Source: Pseudobdellovibrionaceae bacterium (GTDB lineage: Bacteria; Bdellovibrionota; Bdellovibrionia; Bdellovibrionales; UBA1609). Taken from it: 64,000 nt of DNA. Made by a program: the position numbers and the translations under genes. The stretch lies in the NCBI GenBank assembly GCA_947444305.1, contig CANEZP010000001.1, positions 144,151-208,150 of the forward strand. Direction: 5' to 3'. The notes under the pieces were generated by a model, which saw only the letters and a program-made list of their open reading frames with translations, made no database searches and was not told the DNA's origin. Shown here one piece after another: positions 8,758-36,463 of this stretch (its first letter is position 1; every line of letters begins with the position of its first letter).

Positions 8758-8795
8758 GCCGCAGGTCGTTCGTAGTTATAATTTTGGTAAGTAGG

Positions 8796-8823: not shown

Positions 8824-8832
8824 ATTCAATCG

Positions 8833-12835: not shown

Positions 12836-12837
12836 GA

Positions 12838-12860: not shown

Positions 12861-13045
12861 GAGCCACTCACATGGACGGAAGATTTTGGGTGCTAAGGAG
12901 ATGGGGCGGTCGAAGGCGGGATATTCGTGCTAGCCAGCTCCGAAGGGTACGCTGGCTGACCGCAATCTCGAATAGATAATACTCACGCTTGATCCAGTCG
13001 GAAACGCGTCGTCCGCTCCGCCCGCATCGTGCAGGAACGAAAAAA

Positions 13046-14376: not shown

Positions 14377-15327
14377 TCACAGCTTCTTGAAGCGTTCCAT
14401 CATTCCGACGAGCACGTTAAGAATTCCGGGCTCGCGCGCGGAGTGGCCTGCATCGGGTACGATATGCAAAATACTTTCGGGCCAGGCTTTGTGCAGCTCC
14501 CAAGCGTTTTCGACCGGGCAGACCACATCGTAGCGGCCGTGCACGATTTCGCAGGGAATATTTTTGAGGCGACCGATGTCCTCTAATATTTGATTGTCGT
14601 GTTTCATCCAAATGTTGTTGGTGAAGTAGTGGCATTCGATACGCGCGAACGCCTCGGCGAATTCGTCTTCGCCCGAATCCTCGATCATCTTGGGGTCGGG
14701 GATCAGGCGGGAAGTCGCGCCCTCCCAGGTGCTCCACGCGCGCGCGGCTTGCAAGCGAACTTCGCGGTCCGCGCTCGTTAAACGTTTGTAGTAAGCCGAG
14801 ACGAGATCGCTGCGTTCGGCTTCGGGGATCACATTAAGATAAGGCTCCCAAGCGTCGGGAAAGATGTGGCTGGCGCCGTCTTGGTAGAACCAGCGTATCT
14901 CTTTTTTGCGGCAAAGAAATATTCCACGCAAAGCTAAGGCTTTAACCCGCGTGGGGTGAGTTTCGGCGTAGAGAAGGGCTAGCGTGCTGCCCCAGCTCCC
15001 GCCGAAGCAGATCCATTGGTCGATCTTGAGATGTTCGCGCAACACTTCCATGTCGGCGATTAAATCCCAGGTCGTGTTGTTCTTAAGTTCGGCGTAAGGC
15101 GTACTTTGCCCGCAGCCCCGCTGGTCGAACAAGATTACGCGGTAATGTTTCGGATCAAAGTAGCGGCGATGCGAGGGTTCGGTGCCGCCGCCGGGGCCAC
15201 CGTGAATGAACACGACCGGCACACCGTCGGGGTTGCCGGCCTGCTCGAAATAAATCTGGTGCCCGCCCGGTACGCTCAAACGCCCGGTGGCGAAAGGTTC
15301 GATTTCGGGAAAAGCACCATAAACCAT
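14377..15327 (-). CDS. pip: Proline iminopeptidase (S33 alpha/beta hydrolase)
   Basis: A 316-residue cytoplasmic peptidase that removes N-terminal proline from peptides. It shows HGGPGGG (oxyanion hole) near 42-48, the nucleophile elbow GGSWGS near 109-114, the catalytic Asp in HGRYDVVCP and the His in DAGHSAREPG. Length is typical for the family. It starts one base after the thiolase stop, so the two are cotranscribed. The functional link to fatty-acid oxidation is unclear. Confidence 0.93.
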   Translation of the reverse strand: MVYGAFPEIEPFATGRLSVPGGHQIYFEQAGNPDGVPVVFIHGGPGGGTEPSHRRYFDPKHYRVILFDQRGCGQSTPYAELKNNTTWDLIADMEVLREHLKIDQWICFGGSWGSTLALLYAETHPTRVKALALRGIFLCRKKEIRWFYQDGASHIFPDAWEPYLNVIPEAERSDLVSAYYKRLTSADREVRLQAARAWSTWEGATSRLIPDPKMIEDSGEDEFAEAFARIECHYFTNNIWMKHDNQILEDIGRLKNIPCEIVHGRYDVVCPVENAWELHKAWPESILHIVPDAGHSAREPGILNVLVGMMERFKKL

Positions 15328-15328
15328 A

Positions 15329-16603: not shown

Positions 16604-16709
16604 GAAGACCTCCAGGGTGTTGAGGTAAATATTGTGGCGCAATCGGTCGGCCCCCGCAACAAATGTCTCGGACTTGCTATTTTTGGAAGCGCTCTTAAGC
16701 TTAAAGTCT

Positions 16710-19918: not shown

Positions 19919-21103
19919 ATGGATACAGGCAGAAAATTAAAGCGCGGCGAGATGCTCTTCAAAGAGGGCGATACGCCCGCATCGGTCTACATCGTTCAGA
20001 GCGGTAAAATCGGTCTGATGGTTGAACGTAACGGTAAATTCACCGAAGTCGCCTCGCTAGGTCCGAATCAGATCTTCGGTGAACAGGCATTATTCTCATC
20101 GGGCAAACATGCGTTCGCGGCGCAAGCGCTTCAAGAAGCGAAGGTCATGGAAGTGCCCGTTGAGATTATGAAGCAGCAATTCGAAAAGGCACCCCCCGGG
20201 ATAAAACTTTTGGTGAAAAGCCTGGTCGACGAAACGAAAGTTTCACGGCAGGCGACGAAGACCTTGAAGCTCGAAACCGAGAAGAGCCCATGCCCTCAGG
20301 GTTTAATTCACAAATTATTTACCGAAGTTCACCTGATCGCGCGCCACATCGGCAAGCGCGGGAAGCCCGCCGTCGCTCTCAAGCCGGGTGAATCGGCGCC
20401 GCCGTACGAGCCGGGCCCCAACGAATTTACCGTTTCTTGGAACGCGATGAAAATGTACGCGACACGGTTCTTCGGCGAGTCACCGCAACGTTTGCGCAAC
20501 ACCATGGACCTCATGGCTAAACTGAAGTTTGCGGAATTGAAAATCGGCAAAAGCGACGAAGGCGAAGAGACCTTGAACGACGTTCATTTCTTCGACGTCC
20601 AACTCTGTGAAGATTTCGCCGAGTTTTACCAATATCACTTGTTCAAAGGCAGCCGCGCGGAAGCTATCTACGTAGATCCGCTGGCGTTGAAGGTCGCGAA
20701 AGCTTTGGTCGAAATCTCGGCCGGCGCGCCCGTCACGCATAAGGGCGCTACGCAGGTCGATTACCAAGTCGCGCTGACGCATTGTAAAACTAAACATCGC
20801 TTCGAATTGAAGAACACGCACCTCGACGCGCTCGAGCGTAAAGGTTTGTTCGTCGTTCGTAAAAGCTTTGACGATGGCCGGGTCGAGCTGCAATTCGACC
20901 GCAACGAATTCGTGAAGATGGCTCATTTTTGGAGCATCATTTTCGAAATCGATAAGTGGAACGATAAAGGCTTCGTCGACCTGAATGAAAAAGAAGAGGT
21001 CGCCGCCGGCATCGACGGCGAATGCGTCGCTTGTCAGGGCAAGATCGACAACAGCCACAAGTTCTGCCCGCACTGCGGCCACAAGCTGGCGCTCGCGGCC
21101 TAA
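19919..21103 (+). CDS. Cyclic-nucleotide-binding protein with C-terminal zinc ribbon
   Basis: A 394-residue protein. A cNMP-binding fold (about 5-115, with LKRGEMLFKEGD and FGEQALFSS) is followed by a mixed region with winged-helix-like segments and, at the very end, a four-cysteine zinc ribbon CVACQGKI / CPHCGHKL. There is no canonical CRP-type DNA-binding helix next to the cNMP domain. The ATG at 19919 has GAGG 6 bases upstream; earlier ATGs lack one. It is divergent from rny and its stop overlaps the convergent PilZ-like gene. Likely a regulator; target unknown. Confidence 0.72.
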   Translation: MDTGRKLKRGEMLFKEGDTPASVYIVQSGKIGLMVERNGKFTEVASLGPNQIFGEQALFSSGKHAFAAQALQEAKVMEVPVEIMKQQFEKAPPGIKLLVKSLVDETKVSRQATKTLKLETEKSPCPQGLIHKLFTEVHLIARHIGKRGKPAVALKPGESAPPYEPGPNEFTVSWNAMKMYATRFFGESPQRLRNTMDLMAKLKFAELKIGKSDEGEETLNDVHFFDVQLCEDFAEFYQYHLFKGSRAEAIYVDPLALKVAKALVEISAGAPVTHKGATQVDYQVALTHCKTKHRFELKNTHLDALERKGLFVVRKSFDDGRVELQFDRNEFVKMAHFWSIIFEIDKWNDKGFVDLNEKEEVAAGIDGECVACQGKIDNSHKFCPHCGHKLALAA

Positions 21104-23133
21104 TTAGACGGAGTTTTGCTCGTTGCGTAGTTTTCGCGTATCCAGGTACGCGCGAATTTTAGGAAAGAATCGTTGATCCCGAAATACGTCGCGTGGATCT
21201 GGAAATCCGCTTTATCGTTGGGATGTTCACCGCACGCGTACACCCGCGCCGCCAGGCAACTGTTCGGTGCATTGTCGTAAATCGACTTTCGCAAATAGAT
21301 CATCGTGCCGGGCACGATGGGTTGCTTACTCCGTAAAGTGGCGCCGAATTCACTAATCGCCTCAAGATGAATACTTTTAGAAACGTGCACCGACAACTGG
21401 GGTTGGCTCCAGCCTACGTTATCGAACTTGTAGAGGGTGTATGAATTCGGCAGGAATTCACTCAGCAGGAACATCATCTGCCGGCCATCCAGCGGTTTAA
21501 TGAATAAGCCTAAAATATCCTTGTTGTTCAACCAATGCATGTTGGGCTTATTTTCGTGCTCGGTCGTAATAAAAAACTTCAGCTGATCGATATTTTCGCA
21601 CAGCCCAACCTGTACCGCACGCATCCGTAAACCTTCAACCCACGAGACCGGATCGTCGGGCACGAAGTTAGAATCTATGATTAAGAAATGCATTTTGGAA
21701 TTATGCTTTTCGTTGCTGAGCCGAATCGCCACGTCATTGAGGGTGGCCGGCGACATTTCGATGGTCACGACTTGTTCATTTACCCCGCGGTAGATCTTAA
21801 AATTCACGGCGCGTCGGTCGCCTTTAATATCTTTTACCGTTAGCAGTTTCTGTAAGACGCGGCCTTTGCTCGCCAACAGCGCGGCTTCCTGCATGATTAG
21901 GGTCGATTCTTTTTCTTGAATTAAACTGAGCCAGCCGTCGGGCGAAGCGAAGATTGCGTCGGCCGGGTGTCCAAGGAAGGTATCGCCGTGCGCGGGGCCG
22001 GGGTCAACGCTCAAGCATTTCAAATCGGTGGCCGACACCGACAGCGAAATCGGATGTTTATAAAAGTCGGCGTCTTCGGCGGGGCGAATGGGCGTGGTGT
22101 TGCCCGAGCTACCTTGCGACTCAAGGTACTTATGCAAGAAAAACTGGTACGAGCTTTCGGTTTTGACTTCGAGCTGGTCCATCTCTTTTTCGAGTTGTAG
22201 CCGCAAGTTACTGCCCGCGGTTTCATCGGGATCGACGATGGCTACGCCGAACTCATTGGCCGAATCGGGCTCGTTCCAAAGCGCATCAGGATTGTAACGA
22301 AATTCCTCGCGGTTATCTTTCAACAAACTTTGGTAACGGGGCGCCTTGCTGAGCACGCGCCGGATCGTCGAGAGCGAGTTTTTGCTCAAACCGAAATAAG
22401 AGAAATAAACCAAGTGCTGCCCCGGGAGCTCGGGATGCGGTTCGGTCCGGAACACCTTACCGCGAAATTCTAATCGGCCTTTTTCACCGGGCAAAGTGAT
22501 GTAGAAGTGGCCGGGCAAACCTTTGCGCAGCGGCAGTGGATTACGGATGGCCAAACCGACGTCACTTAGACGATCGACCTTCGAGATCTTAGAAATCTCG
22601 ATCTCGTGCTTTACTTCCTGATTGAACAAAAACTGTGGCGTCACTTTTTTAGGTAGCGCTAAAAAAATCTGCATCTTCTGTAAGAAGATAAGCCGGTCGA
22701 TCGGCAGGTAAATAAGATCGTCCAGCAGCGGGTGCAAAATATCTAACTTATTGATGCCGTCGTCTTCGTACTTAAGCATCAGCATGCGGGGCGGGCTCGC
22801 TTGCGGCCAACACTTGTACTCTTTCATGCTGTAACGCAACTTATCGAGCCATGGGCCGGATTTTTCACCGATCGTGTCGAGCGCAAAAATCACGGAATGA
22901 ATTTCACTAAAAAGTTTGAGCTCAGCCCCGTCGGTTGATTCATCGGCGGGCGCGGGTTCCGCCTCGGCGTCCGGCGCGACTTCCGCGGTTCGCTTACGGA
23001 AGTAAAGATTTTGAAATTCCTGATTGCTCTTAAAGGTGGCGAAGCGCAGGTCGTCCATGCCGAGCTCTCCGAGAAATTGCTCAATCTGCCGGCGGAGCCG
23101 GTCATCCTGAACAATGGCGACGACATTTGGCAT
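21100..23133 (-). CDS. Receiver-like / double PilZ-like protein
   Basis: A 677-residue cytoplasmic protein. The N-terminus (MPNVVAIVQDDRLRRQIEQFL) resembles a receiver domain without the full acidic pocket. A PilZ-like barrel follows (about 185-260, LSDVGLAIRNPLPL), then a second receiver-like region (about 480-570) and a second PilZ-like barrel (about 585-665, ISEFGATLRSKQPI). Both PilZ modules lack the RxxxR and D/NxSxxG residues that bind cyclic di-GMP. GAGGGGA precedes the ATG. It may be a structural adaptor for surface motility or signalling, but this is inference. Confidence 0.65.
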   Translation of the reverse strand: MPNVVAIVQDDRLRRQIEQFLGELGMDDLRFATFKSNQEFQNLYFRKRTAEVAPDAEAEPAPADESTDGAELKLFSEIHSVIFALDTIGEKSGPWLDKLRYSMKEYKCWPQASPPRMLMLKYEDDGINKLDILHPLLDDLIYLPIDRLIFLQKMQIFLALPKKVTPQFLFNQEVKHEIEISKISKVDRLSDVGLAIRNPLPLRKGLPGHFYITLPGEKGRLEFRGKVFRTEPHPELPGQHLVYFSYFGLSKNSLSTIRRVLSKAPRYQSLLKDNREEFRYNPDALWNEPDSANEFGVAIVDPDETAGSNLRLQLEKEMDQLEVKTESSYQFFLHKYLESQGSSGNTTPIRPAEDADFYKHPISLSVSATDLKCLSVDPGPAHGDTFLGHPADAIFASPDGWLSLIQEKESTLIMQEAALLASKGRVLQKLLTVKDIKGDRRAVNFKIYRGVNEQVVTIEMSPATLNDVAIRLSNEKHNSKMHFLIIDSNFVPDDPVSWVEGLRMRAVQVGLCENIDQLKFFITTEHENKPNMHWLNNKDILGLFIKPLDGRQMMFLLSEFLPNSYTLYKFDNVGWSQPQLSVHVSKSIHLEAISEFGATLRSKQPIVPGTMIYLRKSIYDNAPNSCLAARVYACGEHPNDKADFQIHATYFGINDSFLKFARTWIRENYATSKTPSN

Positions 23134-23181
23134 TCTAAATTTCCCCTCAGCTCTTATTAAACGCCATCGGGGGCCTGCGTA

Positions 23182-23790
23182 TCAAGGGGAGAGCCGTCGG
23201 AAGGTCCAGCCCGCCTGGTCTTTTTCGAATTCGAACGTGTCGTGCAAACGATTCGGCCGACCGATCCAAAATTCAATCGTGCGCGGGCGTATGAGGTAAC
23301 CGCCCCAATGTTCGGGGCACGGGATGTCGCGGCCTGTGAATTTCTGCTCCGCCGCGTGCCATTGGTCTTCTAACTCTTGGCGTGAATCCACCGGCGCACT
23401 TTGGTTCGAAATGTATTGGCTTAACTGACTCTCGCGCGGGCGGGAACGCCAGTAATTTTCGGAATCTTGGCGCGAAGTTTTCTCGGCCTTTCCGGAAATC
23501 TTGATCTGGCGAAAGAGGGGATCGAAGTAAAAAAGCAGCGCCGTTTGTGCATGCGCCGCGAGATCCAAACCTTTACGGCTGCGGTAGTTTGAGTAAAAAA
23601 CGAAGCCTTCCTCCGACCATTTTTTGCACAACACGACGCGCGAATGCACTTCGCCGTCGGAGGCCACGGTCGCGACGTTGACGGCCGTCGGTTCGCGAAT
23701 GCCGGGCGTCGCTTTGGCGGAGGCCATCCATTCTTCGAAAATCGTAAGCGGCTTTGAATCCGGTCCGATCTCTTGAAGCGTGTCTTGCAC
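23182..23790 (-). CDS. pdxH: Pyridoxamine 5'-phosphate oxidase
   Basis: A 202-residue FMN enzyme that makes pyridoxal 5'-phosphate (vitamin B6 salvage). Family signatures present: SRVVLCKKW, FYSNYRSRKGLDL, RQIKISGKAEK, and the C-terminal WGGYLIRPRTIEFWIG with PNRLHD. Length fits the family. It starts at GTG with AAGGA about 7 bases before. It is divergent from the small gene at 23843, with 52 bases between them. Confidence 0.96.
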   Translation of the reverse strand: MQDTLQEIGPDSKPLTIFEEWMASAKATPGIREPTAVNVATVASDGEVHSRVVLCKKWSEEGFVFYSNYRSRKGLDLAAHAQTALLFYFDPLFRQIKISGKAEKTSRQDSENYWRSRPRESQLSQYISNQSAPVDSRQELEDQWHAAEQKFTGRDIPCPEHWGGYLIRPRTIEFWIGRPNRLHDTFEFEKDQAGWTFRRLSP

Positions 23791-23842
23791 TTGTCATCCT
23801 TACGTAGAGCTGATTTACTGGGGGCATACTAGGAGGCTGAGC

Positions 23843-24118
23843 GTGAACGATCAAGAGGCAGTACGGCAATTTATCGATCAAGTACGTTGGCTTTACGAGC
23901 CTGAATTCGGCGATTTCAAACGCAAACTTGGACTTTACATTCAACGCCTTGAAGAAGCGCACCCGTCCCTAAAAAGCGGCCGCGCGAAAGAAGTCATCGG
24001 CGAAATCCGCACGAGTGTCGTTTACAATCCCAACGGCGATATGGAAGTCACGCGCAGGCACGTGATCAAAATGGCGCAAGAGCTTCTGACAGGCGCGCCC
24101 AATGGGCAAGTCCACTAA
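23843..24118 (+). CDS. Conserved-looking small protein of unknown function
   Basis: A 91-residue, mostly helical soluble protein with no signal peptide. It starts at GTG (23843), chosen because a perfect AGGAGG lies 6 bases upstream; the upstream open frame has no ribosome site. Its last 17 bases overlap the sugar-kinase gene, so the two are translated together. No motif recognised. Confidence 0.75.
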   Translation: MNDQEAVRQFIDQVRWLYEPEFGDFKRKLGLYIQRLEEAHPSLKSGRAKEVIGEIRTSVVYNPNGDMEVTRRHVIKMAQELLTGAPNGQVH

Positions 24119-25046
24119 GCCTTTACCCGAGGTCATTTTATGCTACGACCTCGGCGGCACGAAATTGCGCGCGGCCTATATCTCGGCCGCGGGTAAAATA
24201 TTAGCCCACGTGACCGAAAAGGTAGATCTCAAGGCCGGCTTTCCCGGCTTAATTAAATTGTTTGTTGAACTCTCGAAGCGTTTGCCTAAAGCGCGCGTGA
24301 AATCTATTTCGGTCGCGTCGGCCGGCCCGCTTCATCCCGGCAAGGGCGTATTGCTCGATCCCACTAACTTCTTCACGCTCGAAAAATCATGGGGCGTGAT
24401 CCCGTTGGTGGCCCACTTAAAAAAAGCTTTTAAGAAACCCGTGCGTTTAGAAAACGACGCCGCGGCCGCCGTACTCGGTGAAATGTGGAAGGGCGGCCAC
24501 GGAAGAAAACAAAATATCGTCGCGATGACCCTCGGCACCGGCGTCGGTATCGGTGTGATCACGAACGGGCAATTGGTACGCGCGGGCCGCGGCCTGCACA
24601 CCGAAGCCAGTCACATCCCCATCAATTCAGAAGATCGAAATTATCCTTGCGGTTGCGGCGCCTACGGGTGCATCGAAGCTTACTTAGCCGGTACGCATTT
24701 CAGTAAGCGCATGGGCGCGCGCGTAGGCAAAGAGTTGACCGGCCCCGAAGCGGTCGAGTTGGCCGAGGACGGCGACCTGCAGGTGCGTACAAGTTTTCGT
24801 GAGTACGGAAAATATCTCGCGCAAGCGATCCGATCGTTAACGGTCACGTTCGCGCCGGAGGTGGTGGTGTTGTCGGGCGGCTTCTCGCACGCCTCATCGC
24901 TCTTCTTGCCCGAAACGAAAAAAGCGCTCCCGCATTTACTGGAACGCTACCGCGACGGAATCGATTTGTTACCGGAAGTGAAAGTCTCGAAACTACAAAA
25001 CGACGCCGGTATCCTCGGCGCCGCGTATTTGGCGTTGAACGATTAG
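24102..25046 (+). CDS. ROK-family sugar kinase (glucokinase-like)
   Basis: A 314-residue kinase. The N-terminal phosphate loop CYDLGGTKLRAA (about 14-25), catalytic Asp in LENDAAAAVLGE, LGTGVGIGV, and the ROK zinc site CGCGAYGCIE near 185-194 are all present. The zinc-site His comes in EASH instead of the usual ExGH. ROK kinases phosphorylate glucose, N-acetylglucosamine or N-acetylmannosamine; which one cannot be read here. It is coupled to the small gene before it, and ends one base from the convergent ATPase operon. Confidence 0.9.
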   Translation: MGKSTKPLPEVILCYDLGGTKLRAAYISAAGKILAHVTEKVDLKAGFPGLIKLFVELSKRLPKARVKSISVASAGPLHPGKGVLLDPTNFFTLEKSWGVIPLVAHLKKAFKKPVRLENDAAAAVLGEMWKGGHGRKQNIVAMTLGTGVGIGVITNGQLVRAGRGLHTEASHIPINSEDRNYPCGCGAYGCIEAYLAGTHFSKRMGARVGKELTGPEAVELAEDGDLQVRTSFREYGKYLAQAIRSLTVTFAPEVVVLSGGFSHASSLFLPETKKALPHLLERYRDGIDLLPEVKVSKLQNDAGILGAAYLALND

Positions 25047-25047: not shown

Positions 25048-27531
25048 CTATTTAAAGAAAACGAAGCGCTGGCCGTCCCAGCTTAATTCCAAAACTTCGC
25101 CGCCTCTGACTACGCCGGCATCGATTAGCTCGTTGAGCTGCTGCAGAATCTGCGTGTTGATGACCCGGTCGATACCGTCGACTTCGTTTGCTTCGGCGGC
25201 CAACCGGTAAGCAACACCGCGGCGACTGATTTTAATTTGTACCGGGTTTGGTAACGCAAGCTGTGTCTTGAGAGCGTCATTGAGTTCGGATACACGACGC
25301 TCGATAATGCGAGCCAAGTTAAACCAAGTCGGCTTACGTAATTGAACAAGGCTATCGCTGCGTTGGAGAATGGACATGAAATGCATAGCCATCGTACCTT
25401 TGTCGCCTGCGGCTTTAAACATTTCGGTGACGGCTCTTGTTAAAGAAGCCGCTTGGTCACCCGTAGCGTTCGAATAAACCTGCGTCGGCAAATTACGGAT
25501 CGTGCCGTAATGGAATAGCAATACAGAGTCAGAAAAATCAACGAGGTTACTGTCGGCGAAATTTCCTAGTTCGACTCGGCCGGTTTCAGCCGCCTCGACC
25601 AATCGTTTCAGAGTCGTGGGATCCGCGTTTTCCACGTTTAAAAAAGCGATCGCGCGGTGCGGACGTTGATCCACCAGTTTTTTAATCTGTTCGAAGTCCG
25701 TACCACGTTGATTGAAATCGACGATCAAAGTTTTTAAGTGAGCTTCGCGAACTTCTTTACCGTTTTTGGCGCCGTAAACTAAATGATCGATCGCGCGAAC
25801 GGTTTCTTGAATCTGATTTGTGTCATCAACGACCGTCAAAACGGCGCGTGCTTTACCGATCTTTAAACCTTTAAATCCCATACTCAAGGCGCGCCCGATT
25901 TGGCTTAGAGCCCTGGCCTGTCCGGGCACGGTGCGGGGGAGGTCTTCGCGCAACATGCGCATATCGTCTTGTAGAGTGCGCATGAGGACGGTGCGATCAA
26001 CGCCCGTACGATCGGCAATGGCGATCACCGCTTGTTCGCGGCTTACGACCGGTAAGTTCTCGCGATGCGCGTCGAACAGGATTTTACGCTCGGCCAACAT
26101 CTTAACTAAGGCTTGTCTTTTGATCTCAATCTGTTCGACGAGATCTTGGTTACTCTTTATCTTCGCGAGGTCATCAGACTTGGTGTCCATGACTGCATCA
26201 AGGTGTTGTTTTTGAAGAGCTTTAAGTTCGGCTTCGGCAATGCGAGCTTTGTTGTCGATTGCCATCAGCTCTTTGCGGCCGCTGGACCAAGCTTTTTCAG
26301 CGTTGTCCATATCAACCATCAACGCTTGAATTTGATCTTGAACCTTCGCGGCTTCGGCGTGACCCGCGGGCGTGTTGCGGCCTAAGTTCATCTGCAAATC
26401 GCTCTTGAGGCTAGTGATTTTAGATTTTATCACTTGAACTTCAGCCGAGTTGGCGAAGTCCACGAGGTACGCGGCACCGGCGCGATTCATCATGTCCAGC
26501 GCCGGATCCGGAAGAACCAGGCCCCGCACGTATTTTTGTGCCTTGTGCACGAAGAGTTCTAATATCTCGAGTGGGAACTTAACACCATAATAAGCTTCCA
26601 TTCTTTTAGCGTTGTCTTGCACCATCGCGATAGCCTCGGCCGTCGTCGGCGAAACTAAGTCTACGGGCTCACCGAAGCGACGTTCGATGGCGCCGTCATT
26701 TTTCAAATATTTATATTCTTTGCGGGTGGTTGAGCCGATGACCCGAACACGAGCACCTTCGGTACCGTCCGTTAGAAATGGTTTGAACATTTCGGCCACG
26801 CCGGACGAACCGCTGGAATCCCGGCCCGCGCTCATCAATTGATGGATTTCGTCAAAATAAACTATAACCGTTTGATCGACCATTTGGCCGGTCACTTCAT
26901 CTTTGACTTTAGTAGTGGCTAAAATTTCGAGGTACTGCAATAGGGCCTTAACTTTATCTTCCATTTCGCCGCGGTAGGTGGTGCCGGCGACGAGCGAGCT
27001 GACGTCGATCTCCATAAAAATAGGTTTGCCCATCTTGTCGATTTGGCGCCAATTTTTATGCAGGTAGCGGGCGAGCTGCCGAACCATCGAAGTTTTACCG
27101 GAGCCGGGCTCACCCGTGATGACGAGGTTAGGCTTTGATCCATCGTTCATTTGCACGATAGAGCGGTGAATAAGTTCGTCGCGGCCGATGTAGTTCGGTT
27201 TTTTAGCTAAGAAGTCTTCGCTGTAAATCTTTGCGTTTACGTCCTTCAAGATGGAAGCGTCGGCTTTATACTCTTTGCGGATATCTCCGCCCGCCGTTGA
27301 TTTTTGGCGTGCGCTGGCTTTTGCGGGATCGGTTTCGATGCCCGCGTCTTCGGCGAGCTTTTTTTGTGCCTTCGTTGAGCGAAGGGTACGGTTATACCAA
27401 GCGGAGAATTTCTCCGAAAGCGAGAGCGTCGCGCTACCCGCAGTTGCGTTGGCGAAAGAAGGAACCATCGCCAATTGCGTAATCAGTAAAGCAGGCAAAA
27501 CTGCGGTGACCGTATTCTTCAAGTTTTTCAT
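25048..27531 (-). CDS. Exported ClpB-like AAA+ ATPase with degenerate second ATPase domain
   Basis: An 827-residue protein, last of a five-gene operon. Residues 1-29 form a signal peptide with a lysine start, a hydrophobic core and an ANA cleavage site. The first ATPase domain follows Clp/Hsp100 D1: Walker A GEPGSGKT (140-147), the pore-region motif AGTTYRGEMEDKVKALL (182-198), Walker B VIVYFDEIH (222-230), IGSTTRKEY and arginine fingers in AIERRF (281-286). A coiled coil (about 360-490) takes the place of the ClpB middle domain. The second domain aligns in outline (about 540-740) but reads DDTNQIQETV where Walker A should be. Location outside the cytoplasm is inferred. Confidence 0.78.
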   Translation of the reverse strand: MKNLKNTVTAVLPALLITQLAMVPSFANATAGSATLSLSEKFSAWYNRTLRSTKAQKKLAEDAGIETDPAKASARQKSTAGGDIRKEYKADASILKDVNAKIYSEDFLAKKPNYIGRDELIHRSIVQMNDGSKPNLVITGEPGSGKTSMVRQLARYLHKNWRQIDKMGKPIFMEIDVSSLVAGTTYRGEMEDKVKALLQYLEILATTKVKDEVTGQMVDQTVIVYFDEIHQLMSAGRDSSGSSGVAEMFKPFLTDGTEGARVRVIGSTTRKEYKYLKNDGAIERRFGEPVDLVSPTTAEAIAMVQDNAKRMEAYYGVKFPLEILELFVHKAQKYVRGLVLPDPALDMMNRAGAAYLVDFANSAEVQVIKSKITSLKSDLQMNLGRNTPAGHAEAAKVQDQIQALMVDMDNAEKAWSSGRKELMAIDNKARIAEAELKALQKQHLDAVMDTKSDDLAKIKSNQDLVEQIEIKRQALVKMLAERKILFDAHRENLPVVSREQAVIAIADRTGVDRTVLMRTLQDDMRMLREDLPRTVPGQARALSQIGRALSMGFKGLKIGKARAVLTVVDDTNQIQETVRAIDHLVYGAKNGKEVREAHLKTLIVDFNQRGTDFEQIKKLVDQRPHRAIAFLNVENADPTTLKRLVEAAETGRVELGNFADSNLVDFSDSVLLFHYGTIRNLPTQVYSNATGDQAASLTRAVTEMFKAAGDKGTMAMHFMSILQRSDSLVQLRKPTWFNLARIIERRVSELNDALKTQLALPNPVQIKISRRGVAYRLAAEANEVDGIDRVINTQILQQLNELIDAGVVRGGEVLELSWDGQRFVFFK

Positions 27532-27532: not shown

Positions 27533-29014
27533 TTACCTACTACGTTTCAATTTCCATGCCACGACGAGGGGCTTCGTGGCCCGGAAAACCTCCGGTAAAC
27601 CCGTCCCAACAACCATAAAAACGCTATTGAGGGTTTGGGCAAACTCGGCGGAACTGAGGGTGTCTAAGTCCTGCATCATCTCCCGATAAGGGGCACCGGA
27701 GAAGGTTTCCGAAAAACGGCTCCAGTACTCGCGGTCGCCTACGAACCACTGAACCGTATTAACCGGTAATCCCGTAGCGAACAAGCAAATGGGCATCCCT
27801 AGCTTTTGGATGAACTTGGTCGCGAAGGGAATCCGTCGCAAGCCGAACGTGCACACGAAGCCGAGGCCGAGGTACAAACCGACTTCACCGATCGTGGCTT
27901 GCAAATCGAGTCCGTCGAATTCCGTCTTCAGCGCGTTCAAAGCGGCGAGCCGTTCGGGGCTTGCGGTCTGGCGCTTGCGGAATTGTTCAACCATCAACGG
28001 ATGCATCTTAAAAACCATCAAGAGCTGGTGGCGATTTTGATTCATCCAGCCTTTGTCTAAATCGGCCAGCGGCTTCTTATGGTCTAAATCACTTTCGTAA
28101 CGGTCGATGAAGCGTTGCTGCGAGGACAACGGTTGTCGCGCATTGGCCATCAGACTGCGCGTGAGGGATTCGCAAACCACCGTGGCGGCTCGTCTGGAGT
28201 CGGCGGTCTTATGGTACTTCACCGTGCGCACCATGCAGTTGTTGGTGAGAAGCTGGTATAGGCCTTCGCGGATCTGGGCGCGGTCTTCGGGGCCGTTATC
28301 GAGCTTTAGCGGCTTCGTTAAGAAGGCCACCAACGGCATCGTGCTAATCTCATTATGGTACGCTTTTAACCAAACGGCCCGTGCCTTATTGCGCGAGAGA
28401 GCGACGAAGCGTACGCGTTTTTTATCGTCGTATTCTTCGTAGGAAGTGATCTGCGCTTCGGTTAACTGGCTATTGCGCGCGAGCATCTGTGAGAGATACG
28501 AGTTCTGCTCGTAACGTTCTTGCGCGTTCAACGTGGCTTGGTCCCAAAGAAGATTGGCGTCTTTGATTTCGGCCTCGTTCAACGGCGCCATCTTGGGTAA
28601 GCCGTCGAAGTGGTGAACCGGGTTGACGTTCATGCGCGTGATCTGGCTGGGATTAAGTTCGACCGACAACGGCTCATCACGCATTTTAGGCTCGCTCAAA
28701 GCGAGGTTCACGCGCATTCGGTTGAACGCGCCGGGGAGATCGGCCAAAAGTTTGCCGCGGATTTCGCTGCACGTAGTAAATTCGGTGTACATGGCTCCGG
28801 CTTGGCCGTCTTGGATCTGCGGCACTTCTTGGAAGCAATTGATCAAGCCGTGCAAATAAGTCTGCGCGTTTCGCAAATGCACGAACACTTCGAGATTAAG
28901 CTCGGTGATGATCTGGCGTTCGACGTCGTTTGAGCGAGCCGGCGCGGCGGCGTTGGCCAAAGAGTTGGTCAGCAATAAGGCGGCGAGCAGCACGCGTTGG
29001 AATTTAGCGCGCAT
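27533..29014 (-). CDS. Secreted/membrane protein of unknown function, ATPase-operon gene 4
   Basis: A 493-residue protein with a signal peptide (1-23, ending SLANA). The central part is helical and soluble. Two hydrophobic segments near 378-393 and 403-421 suggest a C-terminal membrane hairpin, and the protein ends in a basic tail. It overlaps the preceding gene by 11 bases and ends one base before the ATPase start, so it is translationally coupled to both. I recognise no family or catalytic motif. Confidence 0.75.
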   Translation of the reverse strand: MRAKFQRVLLAALLLTNSLANAAAPARSNDVERQIITELNLEVFVHLRNAQTYLHGLINCFQEVPQIQDGQAGAMYTEFTTCSEIRGKLLADLPGAFNRMRVNLALSEPKMRDEPLSVELNPSQITRMNVNPVHHFDGLPKMAPLNEAEIKDANLLWDQATLNAQERYEQNSYLSQMLARNSQLTEAQITSYEEYDDKKRVRFVALSRNKARAVWLKAYHNEISTMPLVAFLTKPLKLDNGPEDRAQIREGLYQLLTNNCMVRTVKYHKTADSRRAATVVCESLTRSLMANARQPLSSQQRFIDRYESDLDHKKPLADLDKGWMNQNRHQLLMVFKMHPLMVEQFRKRQTASPERLAALNALKTEFDGLDLQATIGEVGLYLGLGFVCTFGLRRIPFATKFIQKLGMPICLFATGLPVNTVQWFVGDREYWSRFSETFSGAPYREMMQDLDTLSSAEFAQTLNSVFMVVGTGLPEVFRATKPLVVAWKLKRSR

Positions 29015-30419
29015 AGTAGGCCCCTTGCGGGCGCGGGAACAACTCGTTCAACTTCGTGCCCAAAGCCTCGCGCGGGAAACTGGTGTACGCAAGTTCTGCG
29101 GCCTGGGCTTGGTTATACAAGTGTTGGACTCGGCGGTTGAGGACATCGCGTTTCAAATCGCTGTTCACTTGAATAGTCGACAAGTAGCCCGCGAGTTTGA
29201 ACGCGCGCTTGGCGAATTCACGGTAAGTGTTTTGCTGAGCGGTCAAATACACGTCGAGTTCGGCGGTCACTCGGTGCTGGTTGAATTGGCGAAAGTGACG
29301 CTGATTCATCGCGAGCGTGTAAAATTCCTTAACCGACTTTTTATCTTCGGGATCGGCCGTCAAAAGGGCCGAGCGTGCTTTTTCTTCTTCGCGCAATTGC
29401 TGATCGAGCTCACCCAAATAAAGAATGTGCAAACCGTTGAGCGAAACGGACAGCTCTTGCGGCGTGTTCGGCTTACCTTCAACCACGGATTGGAAATTCT
29501 CGATCAATTTTTTCCAGCGGTATTGCGTGTACGTCCACGAAGCCGACTCGCCGACGATCCACCCGACGATAAAGCTTACGGGCGTCAGACGGGTCGAGGC
29601 CATGAGTTTGCTACCGATGTAAGCCAAGCGACCCGCGATGGTCGTGCCGCGGGCGATGGCCGCGCCGCTGGGGCCGGCCGCGAGCAAAGCCATGAGGCCC
29701 GCGTTGCTACCGAACATTTGGCGAAACTTTAAAAATTCAGCGTGTTCCATTTGCGCGGCGAAATCTTCACCGGGCTGGTCTTGCTCACCGAACGTTAACA
29801 AGAAGTAGGGCGGCGGCGGGACCTTGGGACGTGAGGCTTCGGCGTGCGCATTGGCACGGGCCGTTCCGGCGGCAACGGCGCTCACCGCGAACACGGACCA
29901 CGGCAATCGCGAGCGTAAGAATTTATGCAAGACGGGGACGTTGCGAAATTCCGGCGTGGCGGTAAAGGCCACGGCGTAGATTAACCAACCCATGACGATG
30001 CCGTTCTGATTTCCTTCGGCGGAAGAAGACAACCAGTAATCGACTTCTGTTTGGTAGCGAGCGAGCCATGTGCGGTTCAGCTGCGAACTTAAGATCCGGA
30101 TCGTCCCGCGGTGGGCCTCGTCCGAGGTTTGGTAAGTTTGGTTCAACGAACGTAAAAGATTTTTGTAGCCGGGCGAAGCCAGCAGCTCGTCGCTGAAATC
30201 GACAAACGCTTGGTCAACGACGTTGCGGGCGTTGCGCTGTTGGCGCGTCTTCACTTCGGCCTCTTCGCCGCCGCAGAGTTGATCTTGCGAATAGTAGAGG
30301 CAGTAGTTCTTTACGTTCGTGTGCAAATCCTCAAGGCCCGACAATGCCGGTTGCGCCGCGGCCGAAAAGGCCGACGCGCAGAGCACGATCAAGTTGAGGA
30401 GGAGCAACGAAGTTTTCAT
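29004..30419 (-). CDS. Secreted/membrane protein of unknown function, ATPase-operon gene 3
   Basis: A 471-residue protein with a signal peptide (1-22, ending AAAQ). Hydrophobic segments lie near 139-154, 172-185, 240-256 and 280-291, some Gly/Ala-rich, with helical stretches between and after them. Two Cys (40, 49) near the N-terminus may form a disulfide. Its ATG shares one base with the preceding stop (TAATG). No known domain recognised; it shares with its neighbours the pattern of signal peptide plus internal hydrophobic pairs. Confidence 0.75.
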   Translation of the reverse strand: MKTSLLLLNLIVLCASAFSAAAQPALSGLEDLHTNVKNYCLYYSQDQLCGGEEAEVKTRQQRNARNVVDQAFVDFSDELLASPGYKNLLRSLNQTYQTSDEAHRGTIRILSSQLNRTWLARYQTEVDYWLSSSAEGNQNGIVMGWLIYAVAFTATPEFRNVPVLHKFLRSRLPWSVFAVSAVAAGTARANAHAEASRPKVPPPPYFLLTFGEQDQPGEDFAAQMEHAEFLKFRQMFGSNAGLMALLAAGPSGAAIARGTTIAGRLAYIGSKLMASTRLTPVSFIVGWIVGESASWTYTQYRWKKLIENFQSVVEGKPNTPQELSVSLNGLHILYLGELDQQLREEEKARSALLTADPEDKKSVKEFYTLAMNQRHFRQFNQHRVTAELDVYLTAQQNTYREFAKRAFKLAGYLSTIQVNSDLKRDVLNRRVQHLYNQAQAAELAYTSFPREALGTKLNELFPRPQGAYYAR

Positions 30420-32065
30420 TACTGGGGAACTCCCGTGAGCAAGCCGTACACGCCGAACATAAATTCATTGGGCACGGCGTAAGCGTCGGTACCGGAGATC
30501 ATCTTTTGTTTTGCGGCGTCATCCAGCATGAAGCCCATGTGAAACATGAACATGAGATTGGCCGGACTATGTTCGCCGCTCGACAAGTAATCTAAAACCA
30601 TCTGATTGAACAAAGTCGGGGGCAAAGAGCTGATCATGTTGCGCCCTTCGGCGTTCAGGTCACGCAAAGTCTCTTGCGGCAACTTCGCGAGTAATTCAAA
30701 CCATTCGGTGATGAATTCCTTACGGCCTTGCAGACGGGCACGCATACCTAAGTAGCCTTGGATCTGCTTCAACATATTGTCGGGCGTACCGAGGCTGTTC
30801 GGCAGATCCTTCTCTACCTTCGCGAAGAAAGCCTTCATCGATGGCGAGGATTCGCTTAACGCTTTCGCGAATTCATCTTTGTGTTTCGCTAAGAAAGCTT
30901 TCAGGCGATTGTTCACGGGGTTGGCGGTGAACGGGGCGTAGAGATTCAGGAAGTCGATGCCCGCCGTGCGAACCGAGGCTTGCACGTCTTTGATCGTTAC
31001 TTCAACGGCGTTCGTTTTCGAAAAACCGGGCGCGCATTGGACGCGGCTGTCGCGGTAAGTAACGTTGTTGCCTTCGATCTTCATGTCGGCCGGGGGATCG
31101 ATTTCGGCGTAGTAAAGCTGGCTAACGTCGAGCAAGAAATTGAGATCGTTCAACATGTAGTTCACGCGGCGCACGTCTTTCGCGAACTGCGGATCTTTCG
31201 AATCCGTATACGTGCGGCCTTGCAGTTCTTGCTTTAACATACGGGCACGGCAATCGAGCTCGAGCCAGTGCATGCGGTGGTGGGTGCGTTCAACTTCCGT
31301 CACCGAGGCGACGTCTTTGGTTGAAAGCAAACCGTACTGGCGGGCGTAGTAAAGGGGAGTGCCCACGAGCAAACCGCCGGCGGCGGTCACGGCCGTGAAT
31401 TCAAACGTACCGCGCGTCCACTCTTTGAAGCGCATCGAGCGGGTGAGTTTTTCGTAAATCCGTGATTCCTTCATGCCGCCCGACAAGGCTGAAGCGCTGG
31501 TGGACACGGCGGGAATCGGCGTCGGGGCCGGGCGACCACGGCGCAAAACCCACAACATAACGGTCGCGGCCCAAGTGCCGTAGTAAGCGCCTTCGGCGAG
31601 ATTGACCCAGTAGCTTTCGCGGGATTGGTGCGCGGCCACGCGCTGCTCTTTTGACAAGTAAGCGGCGTCTACCTGTTGGAAGAACAACCAAAGGGCACGG
31701 CGGCTCGCGCGATCCGAAAAGTAAAGCTCGTAAGCCTCGCGCAAAGTTTTCTCTAACATGTTGGGCGTGGGCAAAGTCGGTTGGATCATGCAACGCGCGA
31801 CTTTGGCCGCCAGGTACGCCGAATTCTCGTCGCGATCGATTTGCACGAGCGCCTTCGCGGGCGAACCGCCGTCGGTGACTTGGGTCAAATCTTCGATGAA
31901 CAATTCGGTCGGGGGATTTTGCGCGTTGAAAGCCGCGACGTATTCCTTCAAACCACAGTTCTCGCCGCCGCCCCAGTTTAATAACGGAGCCGACTTCACC
32001 GGTGACTGACCCATCGCGGGAAGCGCAAATGTTAAAGCTAAAAATAGAGAAATTGATTTTTTCAT
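30419..32065 (-). CDS. Secreted/membrane protein of unknown function, ATPase-operon gene 2
   Basis: A 548-residue protein with a signal peptide (1-19, ending AMG). Hydrophobic stretches lie near 162-175 and 222-245; the rest is helical. Several Cys (37, 92 and others) could pair outside the cytoplasm. It overlaps the preceding gene by 4 bases (ATGA) and the next by 1. No catalytic motif seen and no family recognised. Confidence 0.75.
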   Translation of the reverse strand: MKKSISLFLALTFALPAMGQSPVKSAPLLNWGGGENCGLKEYVAAFNAQNPPTELFIEDLTQVTDGGSPAKALVQIDRDENSAYLAAKVARCMIQPTLPTPNMLEKTLREAYELYFSDRASRRALWLFFQQVDAAYLSKEQRVAAHQSRESYWVNLAEGAYYGTWAATVMLWVLRRGRPAPTPIPAVSTSASALSGGMKESRIYEKLTRSMRFKEWTRGTFEFTAVTAAGGLLVGTPLYYARQYGLLSTKDVASVTEVERTHHRMHWLELDCRARMLKQELQGRTYTDSKDPQFAKDVRRVNYMLNDLNFLLDVSQLYYAEIDPPADMKIEGNNVTYRDSRVQCAPGFSKTNAVEVTIKDVQASVRTAGIDFLNLYAPFTANPVNNRLKAFLAKHKDEFAKALSESSPSMKAFFAKVEKDLPNSLGTPDNMLKQIQGYLGMRARLQGRKEFITEWFELLAKLPQETLRDLNAEGRNMISSLPPTLFNQMVLDYLSSGEHSPANLMFMFHMGFMLDDAAKQKMISGTDAYAVPNEFMFGVYGLLTGVPQ

Positions 32066-35000
32066 AAACCTAAAACCACTTTCTCGAACTCGGCTACTAG
32101 CTCGTTAATGTACTGAGTGTTTTTAGGGCCGCCGTAGATTTGCGAGTAGATGCCGTTGACGTAGTCGGAACCCGCAGAATAAGCGCCCATCTCTTCGTAG
32201 AGATCGTGCACCAGTTTGCGATAAGCCACGCGCGCGCGCGTTTTGATCAACGGGTTGGTCGATTGCTCGGCCGTCTTTAAAGCCTTTTGCAAGTTTTCGA
32301 GGTTCAACAATTCCATCGGCGCGGTCGAGGGATTTAAACCCAAAGCTTGCAGCTCGGCGACGTTGTAATTGGCCAGACGACGCAGACGGCGCTCTTTCAC
32401 CTTCTTCAAAGTGTTGAGCTGACGAGCTAAAAATTCAGGATCCTTAGCGTGCAAACGACGCCAGTAAAGATCCGTACGGGCCAGCGGGTTGGTCCACAAA
32501 CCTTCGAACATGCGGCCGAAGGCGGGCGCCAAAGCCGGCAGCAGCGGAAGTGCCGTAAGCGCCACTCCCCAGAATCGGCGGAATTTCGCATCTTCGATCA
32601 GAGCGCCGTTCTCGAGAGAGTTGGACCATTGGTTCGCGGCGTTTAATAAAATACCGCCGCCGTTTTCGGTTTCGCTGTAGGCGTAGCGGTTATCGCGTGC
32701 TTCCAATTCCATTAAAGCGGGGATGCCGACGTAATGCTGAACGGCCGCGTCGGCGCCGAAAATCGCGGTCAAGAAAGTGAAGTAACCGCGGCCGATGTAT
32801 TTATTGGCCGACATATATTCGGTCATCTTTTGCTGTACCCAGTACGAGGGACCCTGCGCTTTGAACGGCGTGGCCATCGGTACGATTAAGCGGCGCGCGA
32901 CGACTATGCCGATCACGGTTAGAATCGATTCGGTGCCTTTACCGTAAATCGTATTCCACTGCGTACGCTGCGCTTCGAGGCTGATCTTCATACGGTCTTT
33001 AACGTCGCTGTGGTACTTCCAGAGCGCGAAGGTAAGGTCATAGCGGCTATCTCGCTCTTTTTTCAAATCCGCGAGGTCGGCAATTTTTTGCTCAAACAAT
33101 AACTGTTCTATCCCGCGCGATTGGCTCAAAAGTCCTGATTGCGTTTGGCTCGGGCTGAGCAAATTGCTTTGACCTTGAAAAGCGACGTCGAGCAAGTTCG
33201 TACGCGCGATGACCGGCGCCAAACCTTTTAGGTCGGCGGCGTTCAACAATTCGTTCATGTTCGAAATGATGTTGGTCTTCGTCGTGCTAATCGCCGAGTC
33301 GAGCTGAGCATTCCCGCCGGTGCTGTTCAGCAGTTGAGCGAGCGTCTTCTCATCTTGGACGACCAATTCCAGCAAGCGGTATTGATCTAAAGTCTCTAAC
33401 CGCAAAAGCTTGCGGTAATAAGCGAGCATGGTGTTGCGGTTATCGACGCTCCAGTAAGTATCGAGCGCTTTGACGACTTCGCTCATGTCGTCCACGGCGC
33501 CTTGCGTGTTTCGAAGGTGGCCGTAGGTGCTGAGGCGGACGAAGCGTTGGCAATCGATGGCGTTTTGATCGAGCGTGGTGGGCGCAACGGGTGCGTTGCC
33601 GCTGAAAAAGCTTTTCAGGTTGTTTTCCCAGAAGATGCCGACCTTATCGGTCACGGTAAGGGCTTTGACCTCGCAAGACTCTGGATTCTTCATCGACTTA
33701 CGGATGTAGGCTTCGACTTCGCTTTGCGCGCGAACGGAATCACGGTAAGCGCCGGCTTTTTCAACGTATTTAAACCATTGCTGAACGCGCGACGAGCTCT
33801 TGTCGATCTCGCCCTCGAGCATCTTGAAAATGAATTGTGACTTGTAAGGCAGCTTCTCGTCGGCAATTTGCTCGCCGGTGGTCGCTTCGATCTTGTTCGC
33901 CGCTTCACGGATCGCTTTCGCGTAACCGTCGGCTTGTAAGTTCGCAATCTTTTCGTCGGAAGCCGCGGCTTGCACCTTAGTGATCGTTTGGTTGAGCCAC
34001 TGGTTGTATTGACCGATGGAAGTGAGTGAATTTAAGTGGCGCGTGGCCGCGGCTTCGGCCATGGTCTCGACGGCTTTGGTATGCACTTCGGTCAGGCCCG
34101 TCATAACAACCGGCACAACATCGATCATGCTCGCGACCAAAGCTTGGGCAAGACTGATATTAAGCGCTTCGGTGGCCTGCTGAGCGAGCTGCGAGGAAGT
34201 CAGCCGTTTGATATTGGAGTTCATCGCATCTCTTAAGTAGATAACTTGCGCTAGGCGAAGGCGACGTTCGATTTCGGCGTCGTTTAATTTCAGCGGCGAA
34301 CGCAACTGTTTCGCTAACCCTTTGATGTCGGTCAGCAGCTGAGCGTCGAAGATCGTTAAGAATTTTTCGTCACCGCGCAGGAAAGATACGTTCAATTGCT
34401 TAGTCGCTTCCGTAAGCTTCGCGACCTGCGCGAGCGACAGAACGTTAGTGGCATCGTCGTTCAAGCGTTCGGTGATGTATTCAGGGGTAACCAATACTCT
34501 AACAAGATTTTCCGATACGATGACCTTCTCGTCACCCATACGGATCAAGTTTTCCGAGGCGGCACGAATGACCGGCGGCAACGCCGAGATAACTTCGGGC
34601 ATTTGGTTGAGCAATTCGGCACGAACGACGCCGTTCTTTGTGCGTGATAAACGCGTATCGATTTGCCGGCGAACGACGGAAACCAAATCTTCTTTCATGC
34701 AGAACGGTTTTTGCGACATAGCCGCTAAGGCGGTAAGGTCATCCTTCGAGCGTTCTCTCGAAACCGAAACCGCGTTCGCGTAATTCACCGCGAACGAGTA
34801 GCCGAGCAAACAGCGCGCGGCAATTTCGTAATTCTTGTCGTTTAAGCGGCGAAGCATAACTTTAAGGCCGGCCGAGATCATCATTTCGTCGGTGACCGAA
34901 AGAACCACGTTTTCTTTGGTCGTACGAACCGGAATGAGTTCACTGGGCAATTCGGTCAACAACATAGCGCGGTTGTAGATCTCCGCGGGAACGGTCAATT

Positions 35001-35328
35001 CAAGGCTGGTCCGCAAAGCTTTCAGGTTCCAGTCGTTCTGAGCTTGTTGCATGAAAGCGGCCTTGATGCCGGAGCGAACGATGAACGAATACGATTTGAT
35101 TAAATTCGCGGCTTTGATGACTTCGGCCGAAGTGATTTCTTTTTGGATCTGGGCGCGAAGGGCGGCCTGTTGCTCCAGCGCCTTATCCAAATCACGGCCT
35201 TCGCTGATCTGTTCGTTCAGCGTGGCGATACTTTGGTTCAACGTCTGCTCGGAACCGGAACTGGAACCGGCGCCGGCCGCGTGGGCCGGGGAGAGCAATT
35301 GAAGGACGATGGCAAAGGCCAGAAACAT
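32062..35328 (-). CDS. Large secreted/membrane protein of unknown function, ATPase-operon gene 1
   Basis: A 1088-residue, overwhelmingly helical protein heading the five-gene operon. The ATG at 35328 has GAGG 5 bases upstream and opens directly into a signal peptide (MFLAFAIVLQLLSPAHA); the longer frame lacks one. After a Gly/Ser linker comes a long coiled-coil-prone region. Hydrophobic segments in the last third (TVIGIVVARRLIVPMA, then FWGVALTALPLLPALAPAFG) suggest membrane attachment. A scaffold role is a guess; no family recognised. Confidence 0.78.
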   Translation of the reverse strand: MFLAFAIVLQLLSPAHAAGAGSSSGSEQTLNQSIATLNEQISEGRDLDKALEQQAALRAQIQKEITSAEVIKAANLIKSYSFIVRSGIKAAFMQQAQNDWNLKALRTSLELTVPAEIYNRAMLLTELPSELIPVRTTKENVVLSVTDEMMISAGLKVMLRRLNDKNYEIAARCLLGYSFAVNYANAVSVSRERSKDDLTALAAMSQKPFCMKEDLVSVVRRQIDTRLSRTKNGVVRAELLNQMPEVISALPPVIRAASENLIRMGDEKVIVSENLVRVLVTPEYITERLNDDATNVLSLAQVAKLTEATKQLNVSFLRGDEKFLTIFDAQLLTDIKGLAKQLRSPLKLNDAEIERRLRLAQVIYLRDAMNSNIKRLTSSQLAQQATEALNISLAQALVASMIDVVPVVMTGLTEVHTKAVETMAEAAATRHLNSLTSIGQYNQWLNQTITKVQAAASDEKIANLQADGYAKAIREAANKIEATTGEQIADEKLPYKSQFIFKMLEGEIDKSSSRVQQWFKYVEKAGAYRDSVRAQSEVEAYIRKSMKNPESCEVKALTVTDKVGIFWENNLKSFFSGNAPVAPTTLDQNAIDCQRFVRLSTYGHLRNTQGAVDDMSEVVKALDTYWSVDNRNTMLAYYRKLLRLETLDQYRLLELVVQDEKTLAQLLNSTGGNAQLDSAISTTKTNIISNMNELLNAADLKGLAPVIARTNLLDVAFQGQSNLLSPSQTQSGLLSQSRGIEQLLFEQKIADLADLKKERDSRYDLTFALWKYHSDVKDRMKISLEAQRTQWNTIYGKGTESILTVIGIVVARRLIVPMATPFKAQGPSYWVQQKMTEYMSANKYIGRGYFTFLTAIFGADAAVQHYVGIPALMELEARDNRYAYSETENGGGILLNAANQWSNSLENGALIEDAKFRRFWGVALTALPLLPALAPAFGRMFEGLWTNPLARTDLYWRRLHAKDPEFLARQLNTLKKVKERRLRRLANYNVAELQALGLNPSTAPMELLNLENLQKALKTAEQSTNPLIKTRARVAYRKLVHDLYEEMGAYSAGSDYVNGIYSQIYGGPKNTQYINELVAEFEKVVLGL

Positions 35329-35418
35329 AGACACCTCATGGACTAGTTGAGCAATAACTGCGCCCACTCTACCCGAGTGTGTGTTTAAAAAATCTAGGTA
35401 ATTTTATATACTTAAGCA

Positions 35419-35569: not shown

Positions 35570-36229
35570 CTACTTAGCAGAAGCAGTTGCGAAACGAGCG
35601 GCGAAAGCCGGGTTCAAACCGCAACGGGTAGCCAAGTTCGTCAAAGCGGGAACGGCATCCTTCGTGGTTTTCTTCAAAGCGGTCGAGTACGAGCGGATCA
35701 AATCAGCCGCGTAGCCGGTCAGGGTGCTATCAGCCAAATCCGAAGCTGCGGTCTCGTCGGCAGAAACAACGCCGTCGCCGTTCAAATCCGAATTTTTAGC
35801 GATATAAGCTAAGCCATTGATCGACGTTTGTTGGCGCATGTTTGCGGCAACAACGCTGTCAATCGTAGCGGAAAGGTTGGAGTAAGCGTCGGCGCTCAAG
35901 TGAGCGTCCAAGCAACCTTTATCTACAACCGTCGTGCGGAAAGCGTTGACCAAAGTTTCGGCAGAACGACCTTGGAGGCCTTGTACTTTTGAGATGTAAT
36001 CTTGAAACGAAGCAACGGCATCAGCAGCCGGAGCGTTTTGTGCGTGGATTGCGGCAACGACCGTGCGGATGTTGCTAGCGGCAACGGCGGCACCGGTGCC
36101 GACTTTCATAGCGGCTGCTCCACCTTTTGCGGCAGCGCCGATTTCGGGAACAACGCGGATAGCTTTACTTTTCATTTCGGCGTGTGCAGAGACACCAACC
36201 AAGAGGGCAAGAACGATAATTGATTTCAT
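35570..36229 (-). CDS. Small secreted protein with one EF-hand loop
   Basis: A 219-residue Ala-rich helical protein with a signal peptide (1-17, ending SAHA). A single canonical calcium-binding loop DLNGDGVVSADE lies at 148-159. Two Cys (106 and near 204) could form a disulfide. The ATG at 36229 has AAAGGAAG 6 bases upstream. It has its own terminator, so it is an independent unit just upstream of the ATPase operon on the same strand. Family not recognised. Confidence 0.8.
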   Translation of the reverse strand: MKSIIVLALLVGVSAHAEMKSKAIRVVPEIGAAAKGGAAAMKVGTGAAVAASNIRTVVAAIHAQNAPAADAVASFQDYISKVQGLQGRSAETLVNAFRTTVVDKGCLDAHLSADAYSNLSATIDSVVAANMRQQTSINGLAYIAKNSDLNGDGVVSADETAASDLADSTLTGYAADLIRSYSTALKKTTKDAVPALTNLATRCGLNPAFAARFATASAK

Positions 36230-36463
36230 GTAACTTCCTTTCAAATCTTTTTTGGGACTAAGTTCGTATTGATTATCCACTTGCAACCCTCAAGCCGGAA
36301 TGTCGAGATGTTTTTGTATTCGCTCTTCAAACCCCAGAAGAGTACCCAACCCCGCGTTACAAATCACAAATGTATAAAATCATGGATAACTCTAAGTCCG
36401 CTGGATAGTCCGCATTTTTCGGCCCCTTTGACAATTTTCGTTACCACCCAGAAATTAATACAT

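Follow-up and report, generated by a model that had tools for sequence, protein, structure and literature searches.

A signal-bearing ClpB-like AAA+ protein with one intact and one degenerate ring, and its signal-bearing relatives and partner proteins in Bdellovibrionales

The window, by which we mean the whole stretch of 64,000 nucleotides analysed here, contains a tight run of five minus-strand genes, adjacent ones overlapping or spaced by a few bases, encoding proteins of 1101, 548, 471 and 493 aa and, as the last of the run, a ClpB-type AAA+ protein of 827 aa built of a signal peptide, a first AAA+ domain (D1), a middle domain and a second AAA+ domain (D2) (Table 1). Signal-peptide-like starts are present in all five proteins. 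Pfam assigns no family to the four upstream proteins and NCBIfam none that is convincing, and iterated profiles of the 1101-, 548-, 471- and 238-aa proteins recovered no significant family; neither ClpP nor T6SS genes were found in the operon examined. Small signal-peptide genes resembling the 238-aa one are also seen at other loci, the likeness being one of size only. The operon is flanked, at 21100-25046 of the window, by genes for a 677-aa protein of unknown family, pdxH, a conserved 112-aa protein and a ROK kinase, a set that is retained wholly or partly in relatives and thereby enabled a synteny search. A role in a defence system was rejected, PADLOC having given short P-loop matches only.

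Table 1. Positions in the window of the genes of the operon and of the features of the 827-aa protein.
Feature	Position	Strand	Basis
Predicted exported ClpB-like AAA+ protein, 827 aa: signal peptide, D1 (site intact), middle domain, D2 (apparently dead)	25048..27531	-	ORF list, Pfam, NCBIfam, motif table, hhalign
Predicted Sec-type signal peptide, residues 1-29, predicted cut SFANA/TAG	27445..27531	-	heuristic with controls, start codon context
D1 Walker A GEPGSGKT, residues 140-147	27091..27114	-	motif table
D1 pore loop AGTTYRGEME, residues 182-191, pore Tyr present	26959..26988	-	motif table
D1 Walker B VYFDEIH, residues 224-230	26842..26862	-	motif table
D1 sensor 1 VIGSTTRKEY, residues 264-273, and arginine fingers AIERRFG, residues 281-287	26671..26742	-	motif table
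ClpB-type coiled-coil middle domain, about residues 388-500	26032..26370	-	TIGR03346 alignment passes through; long helices in low-confidence model
Degenerate D2, roughly residues 530-827, with VDDTNQIQ in the place of Walker A and AFLNVENADP in that of Walker B	25051..25944	-	hhalign, gapless alignment, motif table
Partner protein of 493 aa with signal peptide, long soluble region and hydrophobic hairpin at the C-terminus	27533..29014	-	E = 6e-15 to profile from five proteins encoded beside AAA genes
Operon protein, 471 aa, signal peptide, without known domain	29004..30419	-	ORF list, Pfam
Operon protein, 548 aa, signal peptide, without known domain; weakly matches 1005-aa protein of G009, same locus	30419..32065	-	ORF list, Pfam, profile comparison
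Operon protein, 1101 aa, GTG start, signal peptide and about 3 later TM segments; weakly matches 1323-aa protein of G009, same locus	32062..35367	-	
Small Ala-rich signal-peptide protein, 238-aa frame, head of cluster	35570..36286	-	

The N-terminus of the 827-aa protein reads MKNLKNT-VTAVLPALLITQLAMVPS-FANA up to the predicted cut, which is followed by T, and residue 29 is the last of the signal. The signal region as a whole (residues 1-29, MKNLKNTVTAVLPALLITQLAMVPSFANA, cut before T) is of the textbook Sec type, and the heuristic recognizes in it the features of the Sec-exported class, namely n, h and c regions and an AxA-type cut site. Signal-peptide scores throughout this work come from this simple heuristic, used with controls and a cut-off of 4.6, and not from SignalP. 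The protein scores 6.2; the cut-off is exceeded in 0.4% of 900 internal windows and in none of 19 cytosolic ClpA and ClpB proteins. Tat export was rejected, as the signal is without a twin-arginine motif. Export out of the cytoplasm is well supported as a prediction.

D1, at about residues 112-372, keeps all of its catalytic and pore motifs and is at most 39% identical to ClpA and ClpB. Pfam matches to AAA (PF00004, E = 9.8e-14) and AAA_lid_9 (PF17871, E = 2.8e-10) indicate a Clp-type D1 with its lid, and NCBIfam matches are to ClpA (E = 6e-47, 160 bits), ClpB (E = 9e-44, 150 bits) and ClpV (134 bits), the ClpB score lying far below the curated cut-off of 1232 of the equivalog model TIGR03346. 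The best stretch of the latter match covers residues 94-555, including the middle domain between D1 and D2, and begins at model position 156; neither Clp_N repeats nor a ClpB N-domain are among the Pfam matches shown. AlphaFold2 without an alignment gave a model of the protein too low in confidence to use (pLDDT 40.6, pTM 0.25).

The second domain was recognized by comparing residues 516-827 with an alignment of ClpB D2 in hhalign, which returned a probability of 90% (E = 1.5e-6) as against 0.1-12% for six control proteins from the window. A manual gapless alignment (RAVLTVVDDTNQIQETVRA / GSFLFLGPTGVGKTETVKA), which sets ETVRA on ETVKA, brings VDDTNQIQ (568-575) to the P-loop position; hhalign puts the stretch before Walker B elsewhere, with gaps, and the P-loop is missing under both placements. 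AFLNVENADP stands where ClpB has LLDEIEKAHP, neither sensor 1 nor the GAR of sensor 2 is retained, and the sole remaining motif is the finger arginine (ILQRSD). On the evidence of its sequence, this domain is a true ClpB D2 and a dead one, and the protein does not have the two active rings of ClpB, its D2 being without Walker A and Walker B. The original prediction of a ClpB-like ATPase with a signal peptide, with intact Walker A, Walker B, pore region and arginine finger in domain 1 and a domain 2 that keeps its outline and reads DDTNQIQETV at the Walker A position, is thus borne out by the signal score, the NCBIfam ClpB match, the motif table and hhalign. The present analysis adds that the ClpB N-domain is absent, that the middle domain is present and that signal peptides begin all five operon proteins.

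The order of D1, middle domain and D2 is common to this protein and to ClpB and Hsp104, and the D1 pore loop and arginine fingers are likewise conserved. It differs from them in having a signal peptide in the place of the N-domain, a dead D2 and an operon of proteins predicted to be exported. ClpA and ClpV have a similar D1 and are cytoplasmic, unlike what is predicted for the 827-aa protein.

Relatives were difficult to recover by direct means. An orthologue search with the 827-aa protein gave no full-length match in 39 relatives, a plain protein search in relatives returned cytosolic ClpA and ClpB only, the C-terminal part found ordinary ClpB matches only in 368 genomes of the phylum, and a contig-level search was empty. 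Syntenic loci were located via a conserved 104-aa marker gene adjoining the operon. In G003, of the same genus, and G121, of the same family, this locus encodes signal-bearing ClpB-like proteins of 909 and 1075 aa, respectively, with a degenerate D1 and a largely intact D2, the reverse of the ring state in the window's protein. In G009 the syntenic operon is present and the AAA gene is absent.

A ClpB profile was also run over the order Bdellovibrionales, after which about 40 regions were fetched. Beyond the ordinary ClpA and ClpB, this revealed 45 additional ClpB-like ORFs, 43 of which have a complete start. The heuristic assigns a signal peptide to 37 of these 43, compared with 0/19 and 0.4% in the control sets described above, and among those that do not score, several look hydrophobic at the start on visual inspection or are located at a contig end. 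The 37 signal-bearing ORFs are spread over 25 genomes, of which 20 belong to the window's family; most relatives are apparently draft or metagenome assemblies. Among 24 close neighbours on the same strand, 17 likewise have signal peptides, compared with 134 among 403 ORFs of the background. A tree of the D1 domains of the signal-bearing class requires two changes, has long branches and does not reject a single clade (p-AU 0.26). The protein had been taken for a single oddity, a view that did not hold up given the 45 extra ORFs, the operon, the membrane partner and two further giants in the same genome. The paradox pointed out at the same time, that of an AAA+ unfoldase leaving the cytoplasm, is a genuine one, and the signal in 37 of 43 ORFs makes it more pressing. 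The solutions put forward for it, namely that the protein may have an unusual topology, may be exported into prey or host or may keep its N-terminus as an uncleaved anchor, are not told apart by the sequence, and the original interpretation is in this sense supported in part.

It could be argued that the hydrophobic N-terminus is an anchor that leaves the AAA domains in the cytoplasm (N-out), or that the true start lies downstream, for which a second in-frame ATG at codon 22 is available. We regard this as very unlikely, since the first ATG lies 2 bases past the stop codon of the preceding, upstream gene, relatives that have diverged widely carry the signal too, and AxA-type sites are near universal, the -1 residue being Ala in 36 of the 37 signal-bearing ORFs. 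In 29 of the 37, the N-terminal charge is higher ahead of the hydrophobic segment than past the cut (on average +2.0 in the n-region versus -0.4 over the 15 residues past the cut), a bias that favours an N-in/C-out orientation. Together, charge bias and AxA sites would favour an ordinary cleavable Sec signal. With the signal in 37 of the 43 extra ORFs, neither a misassigned start codon nor an N-out orientation is likely to account for the class as a whole, and a start of translation downstream of the signal, a finding that would have spoken against the original prediction, is unlikely in the window's gene as well.

The 493-aa protein encoded directly upstream showed in a first comparison a weak and non-significant likeness to proteins of other loci, the best matches being mostly neighbours of AAA genes. 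A profile was then made of five AAA-adjacent proteins with the window's protein left out, and it matched the latter with E = 6e-15. The same profile matches proteins of L066, L064, L065 and L068 (the last with only E = 7e-4), each adjoining a signal-bearing AAA gene, and a two-gene module of such an AAA protein and its partner is thereby found at ten loci, the window included. Cys60, Cys388 and Cys410 of the partner are invariant in an alignment of seven rows. Relatives of the partner also occur at L098, L099 and L101, where the gene for a small signal-peptide protein (202, 211 and 273 aa) is adjacent or close by and no AAA gene is nearby; the first two loci are from another family of the phylum and the third is from the window's own family. 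Because partner relatives without a nearby AAA gene exist in other families of the phylum, the distribution, drawn from few loci of which some are on short contigs, suggests that the partner may be the older core and the motor a later addition. The operon of G009 is without an AAA gene and the partner relatives in other families have none nearby; therefore, the motor is not always needed.

In the ten partner-linked AAA proteins, we judged which ring is usable from Walker A and Walker B in the motif table. The usable ring is D1 in two of them, namely the window's protein and that of L076 from another genus, and D2 in eight, with atypical D2 sites in L045 (DD for DE) and L064 (AKT for GKT), such that in the relatives it is usually the other ring that died, a further point not foreseen in the original prediction. 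Every one of the ten has at least one ring that appears from the motif table to be capable of using ATP. This switch in the active ring offers a naturally occurring test of the role of each Hsp100 ring.

These data bear on whether the protein hydrolyses ATP at all. The bacterial periplasm is taught as being free of ATP, and an exported pseudo-chaperone, that is, an ATP-independent scaffold or holdase in which the nucleotide site is structural only, would avoid the lack of a known ATP source outside the cytoplasm and would fit with one ring being dead here and with the degenerate sites seen in many paralogues. We nevertheless consider such a role unlikely. D1 retains every catalytic element, including the Walker B Glu and the arginine fingers, despite its identity of no more than 39% to ClpA and ClpB, which would be improbable without selection for hydrolysis. 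Moreover, the retention of a usable-looking ring in ten out of ten partner-linked proteins is what would be expected if hydrolysis were needed at the destination, and as far as sequences can tell it is the strongest argument against a merely structural role.

We contend, with moderate confidence, that the 827-aa protein is a Sec-exported, ClpB-derived Hsp100 motor that threads proteins outside the cytoplasm, most likely at the outer face of the inner membrane. It would be exported unfolded by SecYEG, with cleavage of the signal, and the mature protein would refold in the periplasm and assemble into a hexamer. Ring 1 alone would hydrolyse ATP and pull the polypeptide through, for which the pore tyrosine of D1 argues, and the dead ring 2 may provide a scaffold or a plate for docking. 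The partner of 493 aa, with its hairpin in the membrane and a large periplasmic part, may tether or plug the ring. We know of no established presence of ATP in the bacterial periplasm, and we infer that ATP would have to come from outside the cytoplasm, e.g., as nucleotides of prey, host or lysed cells crossing the outer membrane. The task of the motor would likely be the threading or remodelling of proteins in the envelope or at the contact with another cell.

In terms of function, the closest precedent is HSP101 of the Plasmodium PTEX complex, a ClpB-type motor that works outside the parasite cell with a tether and pore or membrane partners (PMC7355975). The likeness is one of design and not of kinship; PDB matches of the 827-aa protein include HSP101 (6e10, E = 2e-22), which differs from it in having two active rings and an N-domain and in being eukaryotic. 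By analogy, the motor could be part of an effector translocon at the contact with prey or host, threading effectors via a pore formed by the operon's membrane proteins. In favour of this are the same overall design, with a tether that has no homologues and a membrane component (PMC7355975), and the inclusion in the order of Bdellovibrio, which belongs to a family other than the window's. No relative of an EXP2-like pore or a PTEX150-like tether was detected at the operon, however, Pfam being silent on the four partner proteins and revealing no pore-forming homologue among them, and cultured B. bacteriovorus is without the extra gene, so that we hold a translocon of this kind to be distinctly unlikely. 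More generally, because most genomes of the genus Bdellovibrio show matches to ClpA and ClpB alone (E <= 1e-6), the signal-bearing motor is, judging from gene content, outside the classical predator's kit, and there is little to tie it directly to predation. The group does include intracellular predators, which makes the parallel with the malaria PTEX motor a testable one.

Torsins, which are Clp-related AAA+ proteins of the ER lumen with a single AAA domain and are activated by LAP1 or LULL1, resemble the 827-aa protein in having a signal sequence and in the need for a membrane partner, and differ from it in their single AAA domain.

The fold and the motifs of the 827-aa protein are standard for Hsp100; new are the location, the partner and the alternation of the dead ring. 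In the literature searched, with subscription papers and preprints outside the search, we found no bacterial precedent for an exported Hsp100 motor, no paper using the phrase 'periplasmic AAA+' and nothing relevant on Bdellovibrio; AAA, ClpB and ATPases go unmentioned in the main text of a comparative-genomics study of this phylum's predators. The novelty of an exported Hsp100 class is thus likely. The presence of signal-bearing ClpB-type motors in at least 25 genomes, with a usable-looking ATP site in every partner-linked case, would imply either a source of ATP outside the cytoplasm or a new, ATP-free use of AAA+ rings, either of which would be new. It can be speculated, as a tentative and rather doubtful generalization, that Bdellovibrionales harbor a widespread, undescribed class of ATP-hydrolysing extracytoplasmic Hsp100 machines with dedicated membrane partners, the ATP coming not from their own cytoplasm and probably from prey or host.

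The extra ORFs also comprise giants of 1324-1594 aa with three AAA domains, including one from the genome to which the window belongs. In that genome, the locus L073 (G000:C4:84000-103900) encodes two further ClpB-like giants, predicted to be exported, of 1275 and 1324 aa (5520-9347 and 12689-16663), which have two or three AAA domains and signal-peptide proteins on their flanks. A subclass of about 1250-1450 aa is recurrent (L073:5520-9347, L083, L085-L089); its D2 Walker A reads GLSSTGKTE or near variants thereof, and its D2 is preceded by a second D2-small domain that retains the arginine-finger and GAR motifs. The giants with three AAA domains are accompanied by a partner family of their own, of 926-1102 aa (L091:10323-13631, L090:11459-14629 and L067:4175-6955), with a signal peptide in all three members and, in that of L091, a C-terminal FGE-sulfatase domain.
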